Part shown: positions 18,430 through 48,804 of the stretch, one piece after another
Numbering within the stretch: the stretch's first letter is position 1
Layout of the letters: every line of letters starts with the position of its first letter
NCBI RefSeq assembly: GCF_000015725.1
Contig: NC_008825.1
Coordinates: 3,100,001 to 3,164,000 of the forward strand
Length of the DNA: 64,000 nucleotides
Reading direction: 5' to 3'
Origin: Methylibium petroleiphilum PM1
GTDB lineage: Bacteria > Pseudomonadota > Gammaproteobacteria > Burkholderiales > Burkholderiaceae_C
Position numbers and translations under genes: made by a program
The notes under the pieces: model-generated
Seen by the model: the letters and a program-made list of their open reading frames with translations, nothing else
What the model was told of the DNA's origin: nothing
Database searches by the model: none

Positions 18430-18978
18430 TCAAACCTTGCGGCGCGACGCGAAGGTCTTCCGGAACTTCTCCACCTTGGGCGCGACCACGAAGGCGCAGT
18501 AGCCCTGCCCCGGGTGCTGGACGAAGTAGTTCTGGTGATAGGCCTCGGCCGGCCAGTAGTTGAGCTCCGGCTTCACCTCGGTCACCACCTTGCCGCGTAC
18601 GCCGCCGCTGGCCTGCAGCTCGGCAATGACCTCGTGCGCGATGCGCGCCTGCTCGTCGCTGTGCGTGTAGATGCCCGAGCGGTACTGCGTGCCGACGTCG
18701 TTGCCCTGGCGGTTGGGTGTGGTCGGGTCGTGCACGACGAAGAAGATCTCCAGCAGCTCGCGAAAGCCGATGCGCTGCGGATCGAACTGCACGCGGATCA
18801 CCTCGGCGTGGCCAGTCTCGCCGCCGCAGACCTGCTCGTAGCTGGGGTCGTTCACGTGGCCGTTGCTGTAGCCGGACTCGACGGCGACGACGCCGTCGAC
18901 CTCCTGGAACACAGCCTCGGTGCACCAGAAGCAGCCGCCGCCCAGGGTGGCAGTCTCGAGATTCGCGGAGGTGTTCAT
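18430..18978 (-). CDS. msrA: Peptide-methionine (S)-S-oxide reductase MsrA
   Basis: A 182-residue repair enzyme reducing methionine-S-sulfoxide with thioredoxin as donor. GCFWC at residues 15-19 carries the catalytic Cys16; EVDGVVAVESGYSNGH, HAEVIRVQFDP, DPTTPNRQGNDVGTQYRSGI and EAYHQNYF are all family hallmarks. The C-terminal resolving Cys is in GYCAF. Cytoplasmic (no signal). Monocistronic by context. Confidence 0.96.
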   Translation of the reverse strand: MNTSANLETATLGGGCFWCTEAVFQEVDGVVAVESGYSNGHVNDPSYEQVCGGETGHAEVIRVQFDPQRIGFRELLEIFFVVHDPTTPNRQGNDVGTQYRSGIYTHSDEQARIAHEVIAELQASGGVRGKVVTEVKPELNYWPAEAYHQNYFVQHPGQGYCAFVVAPKVEKFRKTFASRRKV

Positions 18979-19152
18979 GGCTGGACTTCCTTGCAGATCG
19001 GCACGCCCCAGAGCGGAGCGCGGGGGAACGGTTGGGGGTGGCGCGTGACAAATGCCCGAACCGCAGCACTAAGACAAACCCCGGCCATCATGCCGCAGAG
19101 CGGCGCTGCCTCGGCTCTCCACAATGCGTCGTTCCGACCAACGACAACTTAC

Positions 19153-19953
19153 ATGACCGGACTCGAACCCTTCAAGCCCCTGCTCACCGCGCTGGCGCTG
19201 CCACCGGTGCCCTGGCTGCTGCTGATGCTGCTCGGTGGACGCTTGATGCTCTGGCGCCCGCGCGTCGGCCTGCTGCTGTTGCTGCTGGGTGCAGCCCTCA
19301 TCTGGCTGAGCGCCTGCCAGGGCAGCGCCCACTGGCTGCAGTCGACCCTGCTGCCGGCTCCGCCGCCGCTGAGCGATGCCGATATCAGCGGCCTGAAGCC
19401 GCCCAAGGCCGAGCCCGCGCCGACGACCGCGATCCTGGTGATCGGCGGCGGGCGCATCCCGCGCGCACCGGAGTCCGGCACGGCCGACCTGCAACCCGCC
19501 TCGCTGGAGCGCCTGCGCTATGCGGTGCGGCTGTCGCGCCAGACCGGCCTGCCCCTGGCCTTCAGCGGCGGCCTCGGCTGGGGCCAGCACGACGACGGCG
19601 GCCTGTCGGAAGCCGAGATCGCGCAACGCATCGCCGAGCGCGACTTCCTGAGACCGATCAAATGGGTAGAGACCGCCTCGCGCGACACACGCGAGAACGC
19701 GCGGCTGAGCGTGAAGCAGCTGCACACCGCCGGCGTGCGCCACATCGTGCTGGTGACGCACGCCTGGCACATGCCGCGCGCGCTGCGCGCCTTCCGGCAG
19801 GAGGCCGGTGAGTCGATGCAGATCACCGCCGCACCGATGGGCTATTTCGTGCCGGCCGACCGCGGCGTGCTCGAGTGGCTGCCGAGCAGCGCCGGATTCG
19901 GGGAAGTGCGCGTGGTGCTGCGCGAACTGCTGGCGCGCGGCGTCGGCTACTAG
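19153..19953 (+). CDS. YdcF/ElyC-family membrane protein (DUF218)
   Basis: A 266-residue protein with two N-terminal membrane helices (about 15-30 and 36-56) and a periplasmic DUF218 domain. Family motifs: AILVIGGGRIP, PLAFSGGLGWGQ, ETASRDTRENA and VLVTHAWHMPRALRAF. Members such as ElyC affect envelope biogenesis and undecaprenyl-phosphate-dependent pathways; biochemical activity is poorly defined. The start lies just downstream of the msrA divergent region. It is convergent with ubiD, with a structured intergenic region between. Confidence 0.85.
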   Translation: MTGLEPFKPLLTALALPPVPWLLLMLLGGRLMLWRPRVGLLLLLLGAALIWLSACQGSAHWLQSTLLPAPPPLSDADISGLKPPKAEPAPTTAILVIGGGRIPRAPESGTADLQPASLERLRYAVRLSRQTGLPLAFSGGLGWGQHDDGGLSEAEIAQRIAERDFLRPIKWVETASRDTRENARLSVKQLHTAGVRHIVLVTHAWHMPRALRAFRQEAGESMQITAAPMGYFVPADRGVLEWLPSSAGFGEVRVVLRELLARGVGY

Positions 19954-36511: not shown

Positions 36512-36937
36512 TTGCCGATCTCCTCACTGCCCCCCGCGTTCCGCTTCCCGCTGCGCGTGTACTGGGAAGACACCGACGCCGGCGGCGTGGTGTTCTACGC
36601 CAACTACCTGAAGTTCTTCGAACGCGCCCGCACGGAGTGGCTGCGCGGCTTCGGCTTCGAGCAGGAGATACTGCGCACCCGCGAGAGCGTGATGTTCATC
36701 GTCAGCGAGACCGCGGTGCGCTACCTGCGCCCGGCCCGGCTCGACGACCTGCTGCAGGTGAGCGTGACGATCCGCGAAGCCCGGCAGGCCAGCCTGAAGC
36801 TCGCGCAACAATGCTGGCGCAGCGATCCCGACGGCGAGACGCTGCTGGCCGAAGGCACGATCCGCATCGGCTGCGTGGATAGCGGAACCTTCCGCCCGCG
36901 TCGCATTCCGATCTCTCTCCTCGAAGCCCTGGCATGA
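36512..36937 (+). CDS. ybgC: Tol-Pal-associated acyl-CoA thioesterase YbgC
   Basis: A 141-residue 4HBT hotdog thioesterase. RVYWEDTDAGGVVFYANYLKFFERARTEWL contains the catalytic Asp motif (EDTDAGGVVFYANYL) and matches YbgC, which is nearly always upstream of tolQ. The start is not certain; TTG 36512 is the first in-frame candidate giving the full domain, with only a weak ribosome binding site. Overlaps tolQ by 4 bases (ATGA). Confidence 0.93.
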   Translation: MPISSLPPAFRFPLRVYWEDTDAGGVVFYANYLKFFERARTEWLRGFGFEQEILRTRESVMFIVSETAVRYLRPARLDDLLQVSVTIREARQASLKLAQQCWRSDPDGETLLAEGTIRIGCVDSGTFRPRRIPISLLEALA

Positions 36938-37617
36938 ATTCACAAGACCTCTCGATCTTCCAGCTGGTGCTGCACGCGAGCCTCGTCGTGCAGTTGGTCA
37001 TCGTCGCGCTGCTGGCGATGTCACTCGCGAGCTGGACCGTGATCTTCGGCAAGCTGTTCGGGCTCAAGCGCGTGCGCGCGCTCAACGAGGGCTTCGAGCG
37101 TGACTTCTGGTCGGGCCAGAACCTGCAGGACCTGTACGCCGACGCCGCCAAGAAGGCCGACCGATCCGGCCCGATGACGCGCATCTTCGCCTCCGGCATG
37201 CGCGAGTTCATGAAGCTGCGCGAGCGCCGCGTGGCCGATCCGGGCGCGCTCCTCGACGGCTCTCGCCGCGCGATGCGCGCGAGCTTCCAGCGCGAACTCG
37301 ACACCGTGGAATCGCACCTGAGCTTCCTCGCCTCGGTGGGCTCGGTGTCGCCCTACGTCGGCCTGTTCGGCACCGTGTGGGGAATCATGCATGCCTTCAC
37401 CGGCCTGGCGAACCTGCAGCAGGTGACGCTGGCCACGGTGGCCCCCGGCATCGCCGAGGCGCTGGTGGCCACCGCGATCGGACTGTTCGCCGCCATCCCG
37501 GCGGTGCTGGCCTACAACCGCTTCGCGCGCGACATCGACCGCATCGCGATCCAGATGGAGACCTTCATCGAGGAGTTCTCCAACATTCTCCAGCGCAACA
37601 TCGGCCAAGGGCACTGA
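36934..37617 (+). CDS. tolQ: Tol-Pal system inner-membrane protein TolQ
   Basis: A 227-residue MotA/TolQ/ExbB proton-channel protein with three membrane helices (about 15-35, 135-155, 170-195). Conserved parts: FLASVGSVSPYVGLFGTVWGIMHAFTGL and ATVAPGIAEALVATAIGLFAAIPAVLAYNRF. With TolR and TolA it uses the proton gradient to energise outer-membrane constriction at division. Confidence 0.97.
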   Translation: MNSQDLSIFQLVLHASLVVQLVIVALLAMSLASWTVIFGKLFGLKRVRALNEGFERDFWSGQNLQDLYADAAKKADRSGPMTRIFASGMREFMKLRERRVADPGALLDGSRRAMRASFQRELDTVESHLSFLASVGSVSPYVGLFGTVWGIMHAFTGLANLQQVTLATVAPGIAEALVATAIGLFAAIPAVLAYNRFARDIDRIAIQMETFIEEFSNILQRNIGQGH

Positions 37618-37620
37618 CCC

Positions 37621-38049
37621 ATGGCACAAGTCACTGCACGCCACGGCTCGCGCCGCCGCACCATCAACGAGATCAACATGGTGCCCTTCATCGACGTGAT
37701 GCTGGTGCTGCTGATCATCTTCATGGTGAGCGCGCCGCTCATCACCACCGGCGTGGTCGACCTGCCCTCGGTCGGCCAGGCCAAGCGCCAGCCCGACAAG
37801 GTGATCGAGGTCGTGGTCGGCACCGACGAGAGCCTGAAGCTGCGCGTCGACGGCAAGGACGCGGCACGCACCTCGCTGCGCGAACTGGCCGGCCGCGTGA
37901 CGGCGCTGCAGAACGGCAGCGCCAACACGCCGGTGATCATCGCCGCCGACCGCAACGTCAAGTACGAGCAGGTCGTGAAGGTGATGGACACGCTGCAGAA
38001 GTCCGGCGTTCAGCGCGTGGGCCTGGCGGTCAAGGCCACCGGGGCCTGA
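37621..38049 (+). CDS. tolR: Tol-Pal system protein TolR
   Basis: A 142-residue ExbD/TolR protein: short cytoplasmic N-terminus, one membrane helix with the essential Asp (INMVPFIDVMLVLLIIFMV; FIDVMLVLL motif) and a periplasmic domain with VIIAADRNVKYEQVVKVMDTL. Three bases after tolQ. Confidence 0.96.
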   Translation: MAQVTARHGSRRRTINEINMVPFIDVMLVLLIIFMVSAPLITTGVVDLPSVGQAKRQPDKVIEVVVGTDESLKLRVDGKDAARTSLRELAGRVTALQNGSANTPVIIAADRNVKYEQVVKVMDTLQKSGVQRVGLAVKATGA

Positions 38050-38056
38050 CGCCGCG

Positions 38057-38905
38057 ATGAACGCGACGACGCTCGACGACCTGCGCCCGCGCAAGCCCGG
38101 GGGGCTGCCACGGGCGGCCGTGCTGGCGCTGATCGCGCACGGGCTGCTGGTGCTGGCGCTGAGCCTGAGCGTCAACTGGCGCAGGTCCGAACCGGCCGGC
38201 GTGGAGGCCGAGCTGTGGGCGGCGGTGCCGCAGATCGCTGCGCCCCGCGCCGTGCCGCCCGAACCGACGCCCACGCCGACCCCGCCGCCGAAGCCCGAGC
38301 CGCAGGCCAAGGCCGAGCCGCCGCCGCCCCCGCCGAACCGCGACGCCGACATCGCACGCGAGAAGCGTGAGCAGAAGGAGAAGCTCGAGAAGCAGCGGCT
38401 CGAGGAACAGCGCAAGGAAGACGCGCTGCGCAAGAAGAAGGAGCAGCGCGAGCAGGAAGAGAAGGCCCAGGCCGAAGCCGACAAGCGCGAGGCGGAGAAG
38501 AAAAAGAAGGCCGAGGCCGAGCGCCAGGCCAAGCAGGAAGCCATCCGCAGGCAGCAGCTCGACCGCGTGATGGCCGAGGCCGCCGGTACCGGCGCGCCGG
38601 GCAGCACCGGCACGGCGGCGCAGAGCGCGGGGCCATCGGCCAGCTATGCCGGTCGCATCAAGGCACGCATCAAGCCCAACGTGGTGTTCGGCGACGAGGT
38701 CGACGGCAACCCGCTCGCCTCGGTGGAGGTGAAGGTGGCCCCCGACGGCACGATCGTCGGCCGCCGGCTCGTCAAGTCCAGCGGCGTCCCGGCCTGGGAC
38801 GAGGCCGTGCTGCGCGCCATCGACAAGACCGAGGTGCTCCCGCGCGACACCGACGGCCGCGTGCCGTCGGCCATGCTGCTGGACTTCCGTCCGCGCGATT
38901 TCTAG
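38057..38905 (+). CDS. tolA: TolA / TonB-like energy-transducing protein
   Basis: A 282-residue TolA: one N-terminal membrane helix (about 18-36), a Pro-rich start of the periplasmic part, a long charged Lys/Glu/Ala/Gln-rich helix (about 90-170) and a C-terminal TonB-like domain (YAGRIKARIKPNVVF ... SSGVPAWDEAVLRAID). tolB and pal do not follow; the next gene is convergent and its stop codon shares the CTAG at 38902-38905 with that of tolA. Confidence 0.93.
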   Translation: MNATTLDDLRPRKPGGLPRAAVLALIAHGLLVLALSLSVNWRRSEPAGVEAELWAAVPQIAAPRAVPPEPTPTPTPPPKPEPQAKAEPPPPPPNRDADIAREKREQKEKLEKQRLEEQRKEDALRKKKEQREQEEKAQAEADKREAEKKKKAEAERQAKQEAIRRQQLDRVMAEAAGTGAPGSTGTAAQSAGPSASYAGRIKARIKPNVVFGDEVDGNPLASVEVKVAPDGTIVGRRLVKSSGVPAWDEAVLRAIDKTEVLPRDTDGRVPSAMLLDFRPRDF

Positions 38906-39369
38906 CGGCGTGGCGAGCCGCCCACGCGCGGCCACCACCACGCATCGAGCGACCACTTGCCGGGGCCCCACAGGGCCAGCGCCGCCAGCAGGCTGCCCCA
39001 GAACACATGCTGCTGCAGCGCCGCCGGCGCGATCTCCTCGAGGCTGAGAACGGCCACCACGTTCATCACCGACAGCCCGAGCGCGCCGAAACGGCCGAAC
39101 AGCCCGAGCACCAGCAGCACCGGCAGCACCAGTTCACCGCCGGTGCCCATGACCGCGGCCAGGTGCGGCGGCAGCAGCGGCACCTTGTACTCGTCCTGGA
39201 ACAGCGCGAGCGTGGTGTCCCAGTCGGCGATCTTGGTCAGCCCGGAGCGGAAGAACACCGCGCCGACATAGAGGCGTGCGGCCAGTTGGGCCGCCGGCTG
39301 CAGCGCCTCCAGCACGCGGGTGCCGGAGCGGCACAGCGCCAACGGGGTTTCAAGCCAGGTCTGGGTCAT
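38902..39369 (-). CDS. bufD: DoxX-family membrane protein of the buf operon
   Basis: A 155-residue DoxX/DoxD protein with four hydrophobic helices; RLYVGAVFFRSGLTKIADWDTT is the family's first conserved helix and loop, followed by HLAAVMGTGGELVLPVLLVLGLFGR. Last gene of the four-gene operon: its start lies inside the end of bufC (20-base overlap) with GAGGAGAAACACC as ribosome binding site. DoxX proteins are frequent in DUF692/DUF2063/DUF2282 clusters; a membrane redox or peptide-handling role is suspected but not established. Its stop shares CTAG with the tolA stop. Confidence 0.88.
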   Translation of the reverse strand: MTQTWLETPLALCRSGTRVLEALQPAAQLAARLYVGAVFFRSGLTKIADWDTTLALFQDEYKVPLLPPHLAAVMGTGGELVLPVLLVLGLFGRFGALGLSVMNVVAVLSLEEIAPAALQQHVFWGSLLAALALWGPGKWSLDAWWWPRVGGSPRR

Positions 39370-40177
39370 GGTGTTTCTCCTCGGTCTCGTCAACAAGCTC
39401 GGCCTTCCACAGCCAGCCGCGTTGCAGGGCCTGGATCAGCCAGGCACTGAAGTCGAATCCCCGGCCGGCCCGCTGCAGCGCCTCGGCCAGCGTGCGGCTC
39501 GCCTGCAGGGCCTGCATCCAGGCGAACACCGGGGCATCGACCGGCGTCACGTCGGCCCGCCAAGCGGTGCGCCCGACCACCACGGACTCGGCCTGGCCGG
39601 TCGCGAGCGCCTCGCGGACGGCGGCGATGGCAGCATCACCGTCGTGCCGATGGGCTGCGTGCAGCGCCGCCACCGGCCAGCGGCTCGCGAGCAGTTGCAC
39701 CGCCGGTGCCAGCCGCAGCCTCAAGGCCTCGGCCGGGTGCTCGGCCAGCCAGGCAAGCGTGTCACGATCGAGCACGGCATCGGCCGCACCTTCGCACTGC
39801 ACGATCGCGGCGTCGAGTCGCGCGCAATCGCCGAGGTAGGGCCATTCGGCGAGATCCGCCTGCGCCTCGACGAAGGTCGGCAGATCCTGCCCCCATTGCG
39901 CGAGATCGCCACGCTGCGGCGGCGCATCGCACCACAGTGCGCGGGCCAGCCGGCCGAAGTCCTCTGCGCCCACCAGGGCCAGCAAGGTCGGATAGGCCAC
40001 GGCCAGCGCGCGTTCGGCGGCGGCCGCGGCATGGGCCCGGTAGGCCTCGAGTCCGAGTTGCAGCCGCGCGCCCTGCTCCGCCAGGCGTGCCGACGGCACC
40101 GGCGCGGCGCCGCGCAGGGTCGCCAGCAGGGCGCTCTGGCGTGCGGCCTCGGTTCGCCGTTCTGCGGAGCACGTCAT
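39350..40177 (-). CDS. bufC: DUF2063 partner protein (BufC-like)
   Basis: A 275-residue protein with a helical N-terminal putative DNA-binding-like domain ([54 protein letters not shown] are the DUF2063 hallmarks) and a winged C-terminal half. In MNIO clusters this protein acts as the substrate-recognition partner that presents the precursor to the DUF692 enzyme. Starts within the bufB stop (ATGA), so the two are translationally coupled. Name assigned from operon order. Confidence 0.88.
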
Positions 40178-41070
40178 GCCGCGCTCCGCAGGCCGGCGAC
40201 CTCGTGCTGGCAACGTGCCGCCTGCGCGGCTTCATCCAGCAGCACGTCGAGCGCGGGCACGTCGGTGTCCCATTCGATCAACGTCGGCAGTGCGCCCAGG
40301 CGCGAGACGGCGTGCCGGTAGACGGCCCACACCGGTTCGTGCACGCGGCTGCCGTGATCGTCGATCACCAGCGCGCCGGCATCGCAATAGCCGGCCAGGT
40401 GGATCTCGCCGACCACGTCGGCCGGCAGCGCGTCGACGAAGGCGCAGGCCGCGGCCACCGGATCTCCGGCCGCCGGATCGGCACGCTGCGCGTTCAGTGC
40501 GTTGACGACCAAGTTGTTGACATCGAGCAGCAGCTGGCAGCCGGTGCGACGGGCCAGCGCCGCGAGGAACGCGGGCTCGGGCATCTGGTCGGCGTCGTCG
40601 AAGGAGAGATAGGCCGACAGGTTCTCGACCAGCAGCGGACGGCGCAGGCGCTCCTGCACCTGCTGCACGTTCGTGCACAGGAGGTCGAGCGAGGCCGGAG
40701 TGAAGGCGATCGGCAGCAGGTCGGCCGCATGCAGCACGGTCGACGCATCGCCCGGCACCGATGCCCGCGCGAAGCAGGCATGGTCCGACACACGCACCGG
40801 CCCGATGCGATCGACCAGCCTGGCCAGCCGTTCCAGATGCCAGGCATCGACGCCGGCCGCGGAACCGAGCGCGAGCCCGACGCCGTGCAAGCTCACCGCA
40901 TGGTGCTCGCGCACGTCCGACAGCACCGCCAGCGCGGCCCCGCCCTCGGCGAAGAAATTCTCCGCATGGACCTCGACGAAGCCAACCGCCGGGCGGCGTT
41001 CGGCCCACTCCCGGTAGTGCGGCTGGCGCAGACCGATACCGACACCGGCCGGGGTCGAACGCGCGTCCAT
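40174..41070 (-). CDS. bufB: DUF692 multinuclear non-haem iron oxidase (MNIO), BufB-like
   Basis: A 298-residue TIM-barrel enzyme of the DUF692 family. Candidate metal ligands lie in conserved places: [72 protein letters not shown] and IEWDTDVP. Related enzymes use a multi-iron centre and oxygen to convert cysteine residues of a precursor peptide into thiooxazole, oxazolone or similar groups. The adjacent Cys-rich precursor (bufA) and partner (bufC) make this assignment strong. 51 bases separate it from bufA. Confidence 0.92.
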
Positions 41071-41121
41071 GCTGAGCGACGGAGAGGATCGCTGCGTCCG
41101 GTGCCGTGCGTCCTTTTGCTG

Positions 41122-41400
41122 TTACTTCTTCTCGGCCAGCTTGGCCTTGGCTTCGGCGGCGCTCAGGCCACCGGCGGCCTTGCAGGTGCCCTTGGCGACG
41201 TACTTCCATTCGCCGACGTCGCCCGCCGTCGCCTGGCCCGCACACGAGTGGGTTCCCGACAGGTTGGCGCAATCGTTCTGCCCGGCCTTGGCGATGCCGT
41301 AGCACTTCTCCTTGCCCGAGTCCTGGGCGGCGGCCGGGCCGACCAGGCCCAGCGCGAGGAGGGAAGCGAGGGCGGACGATGCGATCAGATGCTGGTTCAT
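41122..41400 (-). CDS. bufA: DUF2282 Cys-rich precursor peptide (bufferin, BufA-like)
   Basis: A 92-residue secreted protein: signal peptide (residues 1-25, ending PAAAQ), then a core with Cys33, Cys44, Cys53 and Cys73 in the context [14 protein letters not shown] ... HSCAG ... KGTCKAAGG. These four cysteines and the GQNDC motif define DUF2282 proteins, recently described as precursors of copper-binding RiPPs (bufferins). The middle two cysteines are those expected to be modified. ATG 41400 follows CAGGAG; an upstream ATG at 41451 would destroy the signal peptide. First gene of the buf operon. Confidence 0.92.
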
Positions 41401-41453
41401 GCAGTGCTCCTGGAGGGGGATTGAATGGGCCGCCACGGAGGCGACGTGCATGT

Positions 41454-41478
41454 GTCGCGAAGACCGGAAGATTCTTAC
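41454..41478 (-). promoter_or_regulatory. Candidate ECF-sigma promoter of bufA
   Basis: On the minus strand, GTAAG (41478-41474) and CGAC (41457-41454) are separated by exactly 16 bases, with a predicted start about 45 bases ahead of bufA. The spacing and composition fit ECF-type -35/-10 elements. A TACACT on the plus strand (41476-41481) overlaps the -35 and could serve the divergent sigma gene. Confidence 0.5.
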
Positions 41479-41514
41479 ACTGCCCCCTGCTTCCTCTCAT
41501 CGAAACGGCCCTTC

Positions 41515-42111
41515 ATGACCGACGTGTCCGCCTTGCTCGAAACCTTGCGCCCGCAGTTGCTGCGCTATGCGCAACTGCAGTTGCGCAATCCGGCCTGGGC
41601 CGAGGACGCGGTGTCGGAGACGATACTGGCCGCACTCGAGAAGCCGGAGGCCTTTGCCGGCCGCGCCGCGCCGAAGACCTGGCTGATCGGCATCCTGAAG
41701 CACAAGCTGGTCGACCAGGTGCGTCGGCATGCGCGCGAGTGCTCGATGACGAGCGACGAAGACGACGGCGCAACGCTCGAAGAACAGCTGTTCGACGAAA
41801 CGGGCCACTTCCGCGACGCCCCGATCGAATGGGGCGACCCACAGGCGATCGTGGCCCAGGATCAGTTCATCAAAGTGCTCGACGCCTGCATCGAGAAACT
41901 GCCCAACCAGCTCGGCCGCGTGTTCCTGATGCGCGAGTGGATGGAACTCGAAACTGACGAGATCTGTAAGGAACTGTCGGTCACGCCGACGAACCTCTGG
42001 GTCATGCTGCACCGGGCCCGGTTGAGGCTGCGGGAATGCCTGCAACTCAACTGGTTCGGCGAGCCCGCCCTCGCTCTGTCTTCCGTCCCGCCCGCCCCGA
42101 AGCGCCGATGA
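41515..42111 (+). CDS. ECF-type RNA polymerase sigma factor
   Basis: A 198-residue sigma factor with region 2 (LRPQLLRYAQLQLRNPAWAEDAVSETILAALEKPEAF; APKTWLIGILKHKLVDQVR) and region 4 (LDACIEKLPNQLGRVFLMREWMELETDEICKELSVTPTNLWVMLHRARLRLRECL; shown here as separate family segments around NQLGRVFLMREW and TPTNLWVMLHRAR). It is divergent from the buf operon and overlaps by 4 bases the downstream zinc-finger gene, its likely anti-sigma. ATG 41515 opens at the normal ECF N-terminus. Confidence 0.93.
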   Translation: MTDVSALLETLRPQLLRYAQLQLRNPAWAEDAVSETILAALEKPEAFAGRAAPKTWLIGILKHKLVDQVRRHARECSMTSDEDDGATLEEQLFDETGHFRDAPIEWGDPQAIVAQDQFIKVLDACIEKLPNQLGRVFLMREWMELETDEICKELSVTPTNLWVMLHRARLRLRECLQLNWFGEPALALSSVPPAPKRR

Positions 42112-42317
42112 AGCTGCCCTTCCTCATTTCATGCCGTCAGTCCGCGCGCCTGCTGTCCGGCCGCCTCGATCGTCGCCTCTCGCCGGCCGAGCGGGTGACG
42201 CTGCGCATGCACCTCGCGATCTGCAAGGTCTGCCCGGTGTTCGACCGCCAGCTCCGGCTGATGAGCCGTGCCATGGGGACGTGGCGCGCGTACTCCGAAC
42301 AGGAGCGCGAGCGCTGA
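42108..42317 (+). CDS. Small zinc-finger (zf-HC2) anti-sigma-like protein
   Basis: A 69-residue soluble protein with HxxxCxxC (HLAICKVC) and an upstream Cys (ISCRQSARLLSGRLDRRL), the layout of zinc-binding anti-sigma (ZAS) domains. It has no membrane helix. Start codon overlaps the sigma gene stop (ATGA), typical of a sigma/anti-sigma pair. A role in sensing metal or thiol stress for the buf operon is inferred. Confidence 0.85.
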   Translation: MKLPFLISCRQSARLLSGRLDRRLSPAERVTLRMHLAICKVCPVFDRQLRLMSRAMGTWRAYSEQERER

Positions 42318-44416: not shown

Positions 44417-45553
44417 GTCACTGTCCCTCCGCGACGGCCGGCGCACCCTGCGGCGCCGGGTCGACCTTGCGTTGCCTGAACAGGCGCCGTACCACCACGA
44501 AGAACAGCGGCACGAAGAAGATGCCCAGGAAGGTGGCCGCGATCATGCCGCCCAGCACGCCGGTGCCGATCGCGTTCTGGCTGCCCGAACCGGCGCCGGT
44601 GGCGAGCGCCAGCGGCAGCACGCCGAAGGCGAAGGCCAGCGAGGTCATCAGGATCGGCCGCAGGCGCAGGCGCACCGCCTCGAGCGTCGCCTCGATCAGG
44701 CCCTTGCCGTGCTCCATCTGCTCTTTCGCAAACTCCACGATCAGGATCGCGTTCTTCGCCGACAGGCCGATGGTGGTCAGCAGGCCGACCTGGAAGTACA
44801 CGTCGTTCGACAGCCCGCGCGAACTCGCCGCGATCAGCGCACCGAGCACGCCAAGCGGCACGACCAGCATCACCGAGAACGGGATCGACCAGCTCTCGTA
44901 CAGCGCCGCGAGACACAGGAACACCACCAGCAGCGACAGCGCGTAGAGCAGCGGCGCCTGCGAACCCGACAGCCGCTCCTCGTAGGACAGGCCGGTCCAG
45001 TCGAGGCCGATGCCGGCCGGCAGCTGCGCCACCAGCCGCTCCATCTCCTCCATCGCCTCGCCGGTGCTCCGGCCCGGCGCGGGTTGGCCCTGGATGTTCA
45101 GCGCCGGCAGGCCGTTGAAGCGCTCGAGCCGCGGCGAACCGTAGCTCCACTTGGCCGAGGCGAAGGCCGAGAACGGCACCATGTCGCCCTGCGCATTGCG
45201 CACGTACCACTTGTCGAGGTCCTCGGGCAGCATGCGGTGCGGCGCATCGGCCTGCAGGTAGACGCGCTTGACGCGGCCCTTGTCGATGAAGTCGTTGATG
45301 TAGGAGCTGCCCCAGGCGGCCGACAGCGTGGCGTTCACGTCCGACATCGCCAGGCCCAGCGCTCCCGCCTTGGCCGAGTCGATCTGCACGCTGAACTGCG
45401 GCGTGTCGTCCTGGCCGTTCGGGCGGACAGCCACCAGCACCGGGCTCTTGGCGGCCAGCCCCAGCAGCTGGTTGCGGGCCGCCATCAACGCGTCGTGGCC
45501 GAGCGCGCCGCGGTCCTGCAGGTACATGTCGAAACCGTTGGCGGTGCCCAGCT

Positions 45554-45557
45554 CTAG
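45554..45557. repeat. Target-site duplication CTAG, left copy
   Basis: CTAG directly precedes the left end of the insertion element and is repeated after its right end (46768-46771). A 4-base YTAR-type duplication is usual for IS5-group elements. Confidence 0.9.
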
Positions 45558-46767
45558 GGAAGCACTGATTTATCCGTGCAGGCCACGATGGCGTGCGGCG
45601 AATTCAGCGGCGATGATGCTGCCATGAAGCAGACGAGTTTTGCCACTGCCGAGTACGCCGGCAAGAAGCGCCAGACGCGCCGGGAGCGCTTCCTGGCCGA
45701 GATGAACGTGGTGGTTCCGTGGGCGCGGCTTGAGGCGCTGATCGAGCCGCACTACCCGAAGAGCGGCAAGGTGGGCCGACCGCCGATTGGCGTGCCGCGG
45801 ATGCTGCGCATGTACTTCCTGCAGCAGTGGTACACGCTGGCCGACGAGGCACTGGAAGACGCGCTGTACGACAGCCAGGCCATGCGCGAGTTCATCGGCA
45901 TCGACCTTGGGCGGGAGAACGTACCCGACGCCACAACGCTGCTGAAGTTCCGCCGCCTGCTCGAGCAGCACGACTTGACGTCGGCCATCCTGGCCGAGGT
46001 CAACGCGCACCTCACCGAGCGTGGGCTGCTGATGCGCCAGGGCACGGTGGTGGACGCCACCATCATTGCCGCGCCAAGTTCGACGAAGAACGAGGACGGC
46101 AAGCGCGACCCCGAGATGCACCAGACCAAGAAGGGGAACCAGTGGCACTTCGGGATGAAGATGCACTCGGGCGTGGATGCCGAGTCGGGTCTGATCCACA
46201 GCGTGGTCTGCACCGCGGCCAACGAGGCTGACGTGGCGCACGCGCACGAACTGCTGCATGGCCAGGAGAGCCAAGTTCACGGCGACAGCGGCTACACCGG
46301 CATCCAGAGGCGAGACGAGATCACGACGGCGCAGGAAGAGGGCAGGCTGCGCCAGGACATGGATTGGCGTATCGCCATGAAGCGCGGCCAACTCAAGGCC
46401 ATGCCCGAAGGGCCGGCCAAGGCGATGCACGAGTGGTTCGAACGGCGCAAGGCTCAGGTGCGGGCCATCGTCGAACACCCGTTCCACGTCATCAAGAACC
46501 TGTTCGGCTACCGCAAGGTCAGCTACCGCGGGATCTCCAAGAACGAAGCTCGCGCGAAGGCGCACGCTGCGCTGGCCAACTTGTACATCGCCCGGCGCCG
46601 ATTGCTGGCCCAAGGCCTCAGTGCGTCTGCTGCATGAACGGGGGCCTGAGAGCGGCCTCGAAGTGCCGCAGAAGGGGCTCATCGGTGCCACTTCTGAGTT
46701 CACGAGTCGCCATCAACGCCCGCTGTCGGCCGAGTCGCGGTCACGAAGCGGGTTGATCAGCGCTTCC
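45558..46767 (+). mobile_element. IS5-family insertion sequence (1210 bp)
   Basis: The ends are imperfect inverted repeats: left GGAAGCACTGATTTA, right (reverse complement) GGAAGCGCTGATCAA, 12 of 15 matching. One transposase gene fills most of the element, and CTAG duplications flank it. The gene runs opposite to the pump it interrupts. The intact transposase, clean ends and exact duplication indicate a recent insertion. Confidence 0.95.
45624..46637 (+). CDS. IS5-family transposase
   Basis: A 337-residue DDE transposase. N-terminal DUF772-type domain (MLRMYFLQQWYTLADEALEDALYDS), first catalytic Asp in TVVDATIIAAPSS, second in VHGDSGYTG, and Glu in RAIVEHPFHVIKNLFG, the Y(2)R(3)E(6)K-like region. 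All three catalytic residues are present and the frame is intact. ATG 45624 fits the family start; an upstream ATG at 45576 would add 16 residues. Probably active. Confidence 0.95.
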   Translation: MKQTSFATAEYAGKKRQTRRERFLAEMNVVVPWARLEALIEPHYPKSGKVGRPPIGVPRMLRMYFLQQWYTLADEALEDALYDSQAMREFIGIDLGRENVPDATTLLKFRRLLEQHDLTSAILAEVNAHLTERGLLMRQGTVVDATIIAAPSSTKNEDGKRDPEMHQTKKGNQWHFGMKMHSGVDAESGLIHSVVCTAANEADVAHAHELLHGQESQVHGDSGYTGIQRRDEITTAQEEGRLRQDMDWRIAMKRGQLKAMPEGPAKAMHEWFERRKAQVRAIVEHPFHVIKNLFGYRKVSYRGISKNEARAKAHAALANLYIARRRLLAQGLSASAA

Positions 46768-46771
46768 CTAG
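46768..46771. repeat. Target-site duplication CTAG, right copy
   Basis: Matches the left copy at 45554-45557; together they define the insertion point in the pump gene. Confidence 0.9.
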
Positions 46772-48804
46772 CACCGCCGGCGGCGCGAAGGCAAAGCCCA
46801 TCGCGTCGCGGAACTGCGAGAAGGCCTTCATCGCCCGCGCCGCCACCGCCTTCACGGTGTGGTCGGCGCCGGGGCGCTCGCTCCAGTCCTTCATGCGGAT
46901 GAAGCCGAGTCCGACGTTCTGGCCATTACCACCGAAGCTGAAACCGGCCACGGTGAACAGACCCTGCACCGAGTCCTTCTCGGTCTCGAGGAAGTGGTGC
47001 TCGACCTGGCGCAGCACCTTCAGCGTGCGCTCCTGCGTGGCGCCGGCCGGCAGCTGGATCTGGGTGAACAGGATGCCCTGGTCCTCGTCGGGCAGGAAGG
47101 CGGTGGGCAGGCGCGTGAACAGCCACGCCACCGCCAGCAGCAGCACCCCGTAGATCAGCAGGTAGCGCAGGCTGCGGCCGAGCATGCGACCGACGATGCC
47201 CTGGTAGCCCTTGCTGCTGCGGTCGAACATGCGGTTGAAGGCGCCGAAGAAGCCGGTCGTCTTGCCGTGGTCGCCCTGCGGGATCGGCTTGAGCAGCGTC
47301 GCGCACAGCGCCGGCGTGAGCACCAGCGCCACCAGCACCGAGAGCACCATCGATGCGACGATGGTGATCGAGAACTGCCGGTAGATCACACCGGTCGAAC
47401 CGCCGAAGAAGGCCATCGGCAGGAACACCGCCGACAGCACCATCGCGATGCCGACCAGCGCGCCGGTGATCTGGCCCATCGATTTCTTGGTCGCCTCCTT
47501 CGGCGACAGGCCCTCCTCGCTCATGACCCGCTCGACGTTCTCGACCACGACGATCGCGTCGTCGACCAGCAGGCCGATCGCGAGCACCAGGCCGAACATC
47601 GTCAGCACGTTGATCGAGAAGCCGGCCACCGCCATCACGCCGAAGGTGCCGAGCAGCACCACCGGCACCGCGATCGTCGGGATCAGCGTGGCGCGGAAGT
47701 TCTGCAGGAACAGGTACATCACCAGGAACACCAGCACGATGGCCTCGGCCAGCGTCTTCACCACTTCCTCGATCGACAGCTTGATGAACGGCGTGGTGTC
47801 GTAGGCGACGATGGCGTCGAAGCCGGCGGGGAAGTAGGGCTTGAGCGCATCGATCCTGGCCTTCACCGCGTCGGCGGTGGCCAGCGCGTTGGCGCCGGCC
47901 GCGAGACGGATCGCCAGGCCCGCGGCGGGCTTGCCGTTGTAGAAGGACAGGCTGGTGTAGTTCTCGCCACCGAGCTCGACGCGCGCCACGTCCCGCAGGC
48001 GCACGGTCGCACCGCCGGCGGCGGTGCGCAGGATGATCTGCTCGAACTGCTCCGCGGTCTGCAGCCGGCTCTGCGCGGTGATGGTCGCGTTGATCTGCTG
48101 GCCCGGGGCCGCGGGCAGGCCGCCCAGCTGGCCGGCCGAGACCTGGGCGTTCTGGGCCCGCACCGCCGTCGCCACGTCGGCCGGCGTGAGCTTGTAGTTC
48201 AGCAGCTTGGCCGGGTCGAGCCAGATCCGCATCGCGTACTGCGCGCCGAACAGCGTGACCTCGCCGACGCCGGTCACGCGGCTCACCGTGTCCTGCACGT
48301 TGGCCGCCACGAAGTCGGCCAGGTCGGTGCGGGTCATGCTCGGGTCGTCGGAGACGAAGCCGACCACCATGATGAAGTTGCGCACCGACTTCGTGACCGT
48401 CAGACCCTGCTGCTGCACTTCCTGCGGCAGCTGCGCGGTGGCGAGCTGCAGCTTGTTCTGCACCTGCACCTGGGCGATGTCGGGGTTGGTGCCGGCCTGG
48501 AAGGTCAGCGTGATCTGCGCGGTGCCGGCGGCATCGCTGTTCGACGCGATGTAGCGCAGGCCGTCGAGGCCGGTCATGCGCTGCTCGATCACCTGCGTGA
48601 CGGTGTCCTCCAGCGTCTTGGCCGAGGCGCCCGGGTAGGTCGCCGTGACGGTGATCTGCGGCGGCGCGATGCTCGGGTACTGGTTGATCGGCAGGCTCAG
48701 GATCGAGAGTCCGCCGGCCAGCATGATGACCAGCGCGATCACCCACGCGAAGATCGGCCGTTCGATGAAAAAGCGAGCCATGGTGTGGTCCCCTGTCGCC
48801 GCGC

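Follow-up and report, generated by a model that had tools for sequence, protein, structure and literature searches.

In Caulobacter, a bufferin-1 operon (CC3254-3257) is accompanied by an ECF sigma factor and its anti-sigma factor, sigF-nrsF, and by a two-box ECF promoter. NrsF is a membrane protein of six helices and has cysteines in the periplasm. The Caulobacter site reads GTAACC-N16-CGAA, and a similar site lies ahead of sigF, which is itself controlled by sigma-F. The gigPABT operon of Cupriavidus metallidurans, also a bufferin-1 operon, is induced by copper and gold and runs divergently from rpoQ-rsqA, which encode an ECF and an anti-sigma factor; RsqA is predicted to be membrane-bound, and regulation of gig by RpoQ is unproven there. 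Soluble anti-sigma factors of the ZAS type are found over DoxX-MNIO-DUF2063 operons and msr genes in Neisseria (sigma-E/MseR) and Haemophilus (RpoE2/HrsE), where the precursors are of the EGKCG type (gonophorin, oxazolin). In the parts of a published survey available to us (PMC12452194), sigma factor genes stand beside Buf1 operons only, and the anti-sigma factor named is NrsF. A precedent of another kind is E. coli rseA P3, a sigma-E-dependent promoter within rpoE that transcribes the anti-sigma gene; transcription from it starts 228 nt ahead of rseA. In that organism the entire rpoE operon is also read from another sigma-E-dependent promoter, and RseA is a membrane protein that is cut by periplasmic proteases.

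We analysed a window of 64,000 nucleotides from Methylibium petroleiphilum PM1 (NC_008825.1, positions 3,100,001 to 3,164,000), in which an original prediction had placed a complete bufA-bufB-bufC-bufD order divergent from genes for an ECF sigma factor and a 69-residue soluble zinc protein. All six genes lie where they had been claimed to lie:

38902-39369, minus strand: bufD, DoxX-family membrane protein (PF07681, 67.3 bits against a cut-off of 23.6)
39350-40177, minus strand: bufC, DUF2063 partner protein (PF09836, 53.8 bits against a cut-off of 27.2)
40174-41070, minus strand: bufB, MNIO maturase (PF05114, 304 bits)
41122-41400, minus strand: bufA, bufferin-1 precursor of 92 residues (DUF2282/PF10048, 74.8 bits)
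41515-42111, plus strand: ECF sigma factor of 198 residues (NF009173/PRK12520, 314 bits against a cut-off of 255)
42108-42317, plus strand: ZAS anti-sigma factor of 69 residues (zf-HC2, PF13490; NF052368 'antisigmaE', 64.4 against a cut-off of 50)

The profile searches that had been proposed as a check (DUF2282, DUF692, which is PF05114, DUF2063 and DoxX) matched all four buf genes, and the minus-strand region from 38902 to 41400 is confirmed as a complete bufferin-1 operon of canonical content and known biology. Judged from gene order, the MNIO, DUF2063 and DoxX genes adjoin in one predicted operon. The description of the locus as tightly overlapped holds for bufB-bufC, bufC-bufD and the ECF-ZAS pair; it fails for bufA and bufB, which are separated by 51 nt. 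The start of bufC is an ATG that shares ATGA with the bufB stop codon, the open reading frame list having begun at an upstream TTG (40213). For BufB the top NCBIfam model was MNIO_BufB (NF050167) at 306.9 bits, slightly below the equivalog cut-off of 310, and relatives of solved structure are 3bww and 8hci; BufD scored 59.2 with the HvfX model, below the cut-off of 80. BufA appears, by eye, to carry an N-terminal signal peptide, and it has the four conserved cysteines of a DUF2282 precursor (Cys 33, 44, 53 and 73). The central two, Cys44 and Cys53, are the pair given as the modified residues of Buf1 in the survey text available to us (PMC12452194).

The ECF sigma factor also matches TIGR02943 above the cut-off (230 bits). 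The ZAS gene lies directly 3′ of the ECF gene and overlaps it as ATGA. Consistent with the prediction of a soluble, ZAS-type rather than membrane anti-sigma factor, the protein is short, has no strongly hydrophobic stretch (the highest 19-residue hydropathy in its 69 residues is 0.85) and carries the ZAS cysteine motif, here Cys9, His35, Cys39 and Cys42. The spacing C-x25-H-x3-C-x2-C is kept in 75 of 76 ZAS proteins, and H-x3-C-x2-C with an upstream cysteine in all 76 (both counts include the window); the Cys-to-His spacing equals that of MseR and RsrA. A structure model (pLDDT 88) was matched first to RsiW and RslA, at Foldseek E-values above 1. Comparison with RsiW gave Z 6.3 and rmsd 2.1 over 59 residues, and with RslA Z 5.2 and rmsd 4.7 over 61, and a PDB sequence search with the ZAS protein found no anti-sigma factor. 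NrsF (PF06532), confirmed by profile in two comparison loci, is absent from the window locus, where the zf-HC2/NF052368 protein takes its place. From these four residues, it is plausible that the ZAS protein senses copper or thiol stress directly in the cytoplasm.

The soluble-ZAS layout is common at bufferin-1 operons. In the family sample, a bufA operon divergent from an ECF-ZAS pair recurs in 62 of 117 bufA-bearing genomes and is therefore more than a chance arrangement; in all 62 linked cases the pair is upstream of bufA and divergent from it. The suggestion that pairing with a soluble ZAS protein is less described needs dividing. For MNIO operons at large it does not stand, such pairing having been published with EGKCG-type precursors (Neisseria MseR, Haemophilus HrsE). 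For DUF2282 operons it does, within the literature covered, which took in few subscription papers: there NrsF and a predicted RsqA are named, and no soluble ZAS protein was named for DUF2282/DUF692 operons.

Two promoter-like sites were located at the locus:

41450-41479, minus strand: predicted ECF promoter of bufABCD, TGTAAGAA (41479-41472) and CGACACAT (41457-41450), score 27.7
41965-41994, plus strand: putative dual-coded promoter-like element within the ECF gene, codons C-K-E-L-S-V-T-P-T-N, score 23.9

The dyad was discovered without a prior motif in the loci with no ECF gene nearby, and was then checked both as a pattern and with a two-box model of 8-mers, trained on bufA upstream regions only; two gap lengths were seen at bufA. 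First dyad counts in the ZAS group were set aside, since they were dominated by words attributed to the conserved 5′ end of the ECF coding sequence. Of the 64 divergent ZAS loci, which are in-sample, 60 have the site and four lack it before bufA. Among held-out loci it was present in 11 of the 12 with another ZAS layout and in 20 of the 26 that have no ECF gene nearby; of the 13 NrsF-type loci, one has it. The last group carries the Caulobacter sequence GTAACC-N16-CGAA, on the bufA strand in 10 and on the opposite strand in all 13, as ahead of sigF; before bufA in the 64 divergent ZAS loci, the window included, it was found in none. The sequences thus point to two classes of bufA promoter, TGTAAG-N16/17-CGAC with ZAS and a sigma-F site with NrsF, which appear to be newly distinguished here. 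The idea that the locus simply repeats the sigma-F control of Caulobacter was rejected, as anti-sigma factor, ECF group and promoter all differ; with a profile of the window-type ECF, NrsF-linked ECFs score 69-83 bits and ZAS-linked ECFs 136-302 bits. Across the genome, the bare pattern shows no enrichment (20 matches against 75 for the reversed control). Where bufA lies away from an ECF gene, the site occurs in 14 of 18 genomes with this ECF and in six of eight without it (Fisher 0.62); this independence suggests that another sigma factor may read the site. A search for the factor that would read the site in genomes lacking this ECF gave no TIGR02943 match above the cut-off in 21 genomes.

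The second site lies within the ECF gene and faces ZAS, whose start codon follows 113 nt further on. It is present in 62 of 64 loci; synonymous recoding would predict 14.3 at a score of at least 18 (62 observed) and 3.7 at a score of at least 22 (47 observed). The 14 ECF-ZAS loci situated away from bufA show the same trend (10 against 2.9 expected at 18 or above, seven against 0.64 at 22 or above; the site is absent in four), and it is rare in other layouts (two of nine). In a codon test set of 93 ECFs that were at most 80% identical, TGT encodes the cysteine of the element in 81 of 92 cases; at two other conserved cysteines it is the codon in 16 of 93 and in 14 of 92 cases (30 of 185 together). 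The varying Pro, Ser, Ala or Thr residue has an NCG codon in 86 of 92. Codon-pair bias was excluded as the source of TGTAAG, which encodes 134 of 145 Cys-Lys pairs at the site and three of 323 elsewhere (loci not de-duplicated). Chance and codon usage, tried by synonymous recoding, other cysteine columns and codon pairs, were likewise rejected as explanations. The other high columns, 46 and 54 (both Leu; scores 10.7 and 11.0), are read as codon-pair bias because CTC is also the commonest Leu-before-Lys codon elsewhere (64 of 144). Autoregulation was sought upstream of the ECF gene itself, where none of the 64 loci has a site scoring 14 or more; the Neisseria sigma-E operon, in contrast, is autoregulated.

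These sequence constraints indicate a new intragenic element, facing ZAS and kept by codon choice. It seems to be a dual-coded promoter for negative feedback, akin to E. coli rseA P3, and we infer that this ECF reads it. Within the literature searched, which covered few subscription papers, rseA P3 was the only anti-sigma promoter found inside an ECF gene; in the Neisseria and Haemophilus sources available to us none is described. Across Burkholderiales, it is likely that in a family of ECF genes the codons for a portion of the region-4 helix-turn-helix double as a promoter for the same sigma factor that drives only the soluble anti-sigma gene, with no such site upstream, and that the copper-peptide regulon is under negative feedback alone; this regulon would comprise bufferin 1 and bufferin 2, in some cases msrA, and perhaps msrP.

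The bufA-type site appears, as a further new feature, also to stand before bufferin-2 operons and, in some genomes, before msrA. TGTAAG-N16/17-CGAC was found before 11 of 12 bufferin-2 operons; genome G203 has ZAS and a bufferin-2 operon without the site. In the window, the candidates are:

18430-18978, minus strand: msrA, peptide-methionine (S)-S-oxide reductase (PF01625, 218.5 bits; TIGR00401 above cut-off)
19124-19153, minus strand: weaker predicted site upstream of msrA, score 17.2

It is possible that msrA belongs to the regulon in this genome. As a general member it was not upheld: the site precedes msrA in 10 of 34 sampled ZAS genomes, against one of 20 without ZAS and bufA (one-sided Fisher 0.03). 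Among the 30 top-scoring msrA loci, only L204, L209, L220 and L225 reach 14, and two of these have no detected ZAS.

The model that we favour, and judge to be rather likely as a whole, is a bufferin-1 operon governed by an ECF of its own, which ZAS restrains, with an intragenic feedback site. In the resting state, the sigma factor would be retained in the cytoplasm by soluble ZAS. Under metal or thiol stress, Cys9, Cys39 and Cys42 may lose zinc or become oxidised, which would free sigma. In meningococci, MseR is a cytoplasmic ZAS protein and yet oxidative stimuli bring no rise in sigma-E expression, so thiol sensing may not transfer to the protein studied here. Free sigma is predicted, from conservation, to read TGTAAG-N16/17-CGAC before bufABCD, the bufferin-2 operon located elsewhere in the genome and, in some genomes, msrA. 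The sigma gene has no such site ahead of it; since the embedded copy faces the anti-sigma gene only, activation would refill the inhibitor, giving negative feedback and no positive autoregulation. By homology with published Buf1, BufB and BufC would convert the two central BufA cysteines into 5-thiooxazoles, and the exported peptide would bind copper in the periplasm.

Three other readings were weighed. The intragenic element, for which sequence constraint is shown, might be another codon- or RNA-level signal that resembles a promoter, for instance a site for a regulator, a structure in the mRNA or an element ahead of zas that serves translational coupling. We regard this as improbable, because the element fits a model trained solely on bufA upstream regions, on the strand facing zas; the listed sites have a 14-nt gap between the 8-mers, one of the two bufA gaps; and Lys-to-Gln changes yield TGTCAG, which falls within the Neisseria -35 sequence GTMAG. 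That -35 resembles the site here, whereas the Neisseria -10 (CGTCTAAH) is different. Equally unlikely, in our estimation, is that bufABCD is mainly under another regulator and that the ECF-ZAS pair serves mostly oxidative-damage genes. The bufA site in six of eight sampled genomes without this ECF would fit such an arrangement, as would the raised gig expression of metal-treated Cupriavidus cells upon rpoQ deletion, but every one of the 62 linked pairs in the family sample is divergent, the bufA site accompanies 60 of 64 divergent loci, and NrsF-type loci bear a different site.

Slightly less probable still is that this is a plain, known bufferin locus with a MseR relative and nothing special in its circuit. 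The canonical operon content and the MseR and HrsE precedents agree with such a reading; the intragenic element, the missing site upstream of the ECF gene and the autoregulation of the published Neisseria operon count against it.

Overall, the favoured circuit would represent a second regulatory class for a large family of copper-binding RiPPs, with a cytoplasmic rather than a membrane anti-sigma factor. Its promoter signature predicts that bufferins of both types are controlled, although the survey saw sigma factor genes at Buf1 operons only. The dual-coded element would be a clear case of DNA-level selection within a regulator gene and, if the model is true, the signal that releases sigma could be addressed with a reporter free of confounding by positive autoregulation.

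The six genes named in the original prediction were all recovered. On one strand lie bufA (DUF2282), bufB (the MNIO family DUF692), bufC (DUF2063) and bufD (DoxX), and on the other an ECF sigma factor gene followed by zas, which encodes a 69-residue protein.

38902-41400, minus strand, bufferin-1 operon bufABCD
41515-42111, plus strand, ECF sigma factor gene
41965-41994, promoter-like site inside the ECF gene and facing zas, in frame with Cys151-Asn160 of the sigma factor and within its Sigma70_r4_2 match
42108-42317, plus strand, zas, a putative soluble zinc anti-sigma factor (ZAS)

The four cysteines foreseen in BufA are likewise present, at positions 33, 44, 53 and 73. BufB keeps the stretches HGVG, SDH, VEN, DVNN, IHLAG and DDHG, in which the metal ligands of this enzyme family would lie, and it has two sequence relatives of known structure, 3bww and 8hci. 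The 69-residue protein matches zf-HC2 and NF052368, and its gene overlaps that of the ECF in an ATGA. Among the best 80 of 576 confirmed relatives, the nearest named relatives of the ECF are from Methylibium MAGs (L293 and L294). Next to bufD lies a Tol-Pal-like cluster (36512-38905, plus strand) of thioesterase, TolQ/ExbB-type, TolR/ExbD-type and TolA/TonB-type genes, the last of which runs 4 nt into the end of bufD. A DDE transposase gene (45576-46637, plus strand) splits an AcrB-type efflux permease gene (44418-48781, minus strand) into parts of 674 and 369 residues. The permease gene stands between genes for an adaptor-like protein and for an outer-membrane efflux protein, and a TetR gene comes after the latter. 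Identification of the adaptor and of the 674-residue part was by eye.

Background was taken from excerpts of published work (PMC12452194, PMC3240639, PMC10304878, PMC11022561, PMC13097082, PMC6180224, PMC12538549, PMC2893595, PMC7907618, PMC12668002, PMC3511200, PMC8595263, PMC3467454 and PMC10651043). According to these, the central cysteines of Buf1 are modified (PMC12452194), the Caulobacter bufferin-1 operon is under σF/NrsF control, RpoE7 controls a similar operon in S. meliloti and the gig operon is induced by copper and gold. Neisseria MseR and Haemophilus HrsE are described as cytoplasmic ZAS-type anti-sigma factors whose partners control DoxX-MNIO operons, which make EGKCG-type peptides (PMC12668002). 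None of the excerpts describes a soluble ZAS as the partner of a DUF2282 operon.

This pairing is frequent in the family. In 200 sampled genomes, DUF2282 occurred at 138 places (117 genomes) and NF052368 at 111 places (100 genomes). The two genes were at most 6 kb apart in 62 genomes, and in 62/62 the ZAS gene lay upstream of bufA and on the other strand. Across the order (150 genomes sampled), linkage was found in 16 of 55 DUF2282 genomes, with mixed layouts. Besides the window, we fetched 61 linked family loci and 14 linked order-level ones; of the 76 family bufA places that have no linked ZAS, 39 were included. Gene order was determined with profiles built from the proteins of the window. 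The majority of divergent loci read zas-ecf/bufA-bufB-bufC-bufD, some without a detected bufC or bufD. A ZAS gene is present at 80/80 of the closest named ECF loci (the best 80 of 576). All 76 ZAS proteins, 45-90 residues long with starts chosen by us, contain H-x3-C-x2-C and an upstream cysteine, and the Cys-to-His spacing is identical to that given in excerpts for MseR and RsrA. The structure model (pLDDT 88) best matched the anti-sigma factors RsiW (Z 6.3) and RslA (Z 5.2), with Foldseek E-values above 1; these matches support, but do not prove, an anti-sigma fold. We infer that the ZAS cysteines may serve as the sensor.

Two classes of putative promoter emerged when two-word patterns were counted upstream of bufA with no prior motif. 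The top pattern was TGTAA/GTAAG...CGAC in 26 loci without an ECF nearby, and GTAAC...CGAA, the Caulobacter σF site as excerpted, in 13 loci that have a divergent ECF and lack a ZAS. In the latter group GTAACC-N16-CGAA was present on the bufA strand in 10/13 and on the opposite strand in 13/13, compared with 2/26 loci without an ECF and 0/64 ZAS loci; the protein following the ECF was NrsF in both loci scanned (n = 2). A two-box model (TGTAAG-N16/17-CGAC) was trained on 64 divergent ZAS loci, and scores of at least 12 were counted at bufA. It recovered 60/64 training loci (none in three shuffles), 11/12 untrained loci of other layouts (shuffles 0, 0 and 2) and 20/26 untrained loci without an ECF (0, 0 and 1), and 1/13 NrsF-type loci (0, 1 and 0). 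The bufA site of the window scores 27.7, and in a scan of the 64-kb window on either strand only three sites reach 10: those at bufA, inside the ECF gene and at msrA. All 50 named ECF loci with bufA in view (from the best 80 of 576, whose species overlap the earlier sets) have a bufA site of at least 14. Six genomes (G196, G240, G344, G247, G154 and G252) carry the ZAS-type site before bufA and have no over-cut-off match to this ECF group.

In 63/64 divergent loci a site of at least 14 occurred in the 350 nt preceding zas; upstream of the ECF itself the count was 0/64. In the window it ends 113 nt before the zas start. As a null we used synonymous recoding with local codon usage: sites of at least 18 were observed in 62/64 loci against a mean of 14.3 after recoding, and of at least 22 in 47/64 against 3.7. 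Of 18 ECF-ZAS loci obtained in a separate search, 11 reached 22 (0.87 after recoding); four of these loci repeat ECFs beside bufA already counted, and the 14 away from bufA gave 10 at 18 or above (2.9) and 7 at 22 or above (0.64). A column scan showed that the residue preceding Thr-Asn is variable (Pro 34, Ser 16 and Ala 7 among 63) and that its third base is G in 62/63, the top score among 161 columns. In 93 ECFs de-duplicated from 160 at up to 80% nucleotide identity, this codon is NCG in 86/92 and the Cys codon of the site is TGT in 81/92, while TGT is used at two other conserved cysteines of the same proteins in 16/93 and 14/92. The Cys-Lys pair is written TGTAAG in 134/145 cases at the site versus 3/323 elsewhere, bufferin-2 precursors included and loci not de-duplicated. 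Replacements of the Lys are mostly Gln (7/92), giving TGTCAG, which fits the Neisseria -35 element GTMAG as excerpted.

The internal site scores at least 18 in 74/80 named loci (best 80 of 576), comprising 47/50 with bufA in view and 27/30 without, and is rare in other gene layouts (2/9). Three pairs from Paucibacter (L306, L309 and L314), none with bufA in view, are without it and have ICQQL or ICREL in place of ICKEL; it persists at most of the remaining loci where bufA is not in view. We conclude that selection acts on the DNA bases of the site themselves; the simplest cause would be a promoter recognised by the very sigma factor that the gene encodes. The excerpted literature does not report a promoter inside the sigma genes of this ECF group. 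To our knowledge the dual-coded element is new; a published counterpart exists in E. coli, where rseA P3 is described as a σE promoter within rpoE.

A second MNIO operon is present elsewhere in the genome (C1:3011819-3012601, within L001, G000:C1:3011819-3013071), preceded by a promoter-like site of score 23.2. Its precursor has repeated Cys-Lys motifs and no Pfam match; since PMC12668002, as excerpted, puts BufA2 in a precursor group of this kind, we call the operon bufferin-2-like. By precursor motif, 12 among the best 30 MNIO loci of a 60-genome search are bufferin-2-like. Although the model was built from bufA upstream regions only, with none from bufferin 2, it placed a site of at least 14 before 11/12, the exception being in G203. 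Nine of the 12 are either far from the ZAS gene of their genome or on a different contig. In G155 and G161 the distance is 5-7 kb, with the bufferin-1 operon in between, and in one genome (G196) ZAS was not detected. A published survey, as excerpted, finds sigma genes adjoining Buf1, not Buf2, operons. The shared site suggests that bufferin-2 operons may be controlled in trans. This simple reading is weakened because, at bufA loci without an ECF nearby, the site is equally frequent in genomes with this ECF (14/18) and without it (6/8).

Genome-wide, the bare pattern gave 20 matches versus 75 for a reversed control, and single matches therefore mean little. Besides the sites at bufA, before zas and at bufferin 2, matches lie 5' of six genes.

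Pattern matches 5' of other genes in the PM1 genome
msrP, catalytic subunit (NF003767, 482 bits): site L183, G000:C1:475678-475702, score 18.8
msrA: score 17.2
Secreted catalase-family protein: score 15.8
DM13 protein: score 16.2
SoxYZ-like protein: score 14.5
Another ECF: score 18.5

The rest, including L186 (score 21.6, gap 13 nt), precede no gene named in the analysis. An msrA gene with the site was found in 10/34 sampled ZAS genomes versus 1/20 without ZAS and bufA, and msr genes are, in the excerpts, also under Neisseria σE and Haemophilus RpoE2. Furthermore, msrA and bufA share a contig, at a distance of 20-30 kb, in the window (18430-41400) and in 12 of 14 other sampled genomes checked by coordinates; this recurrence indicates that the distance is conserved.

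Overall, bufABCD represents a known type of operon; the way in which it is regulated is a variant that is both distinct and common.
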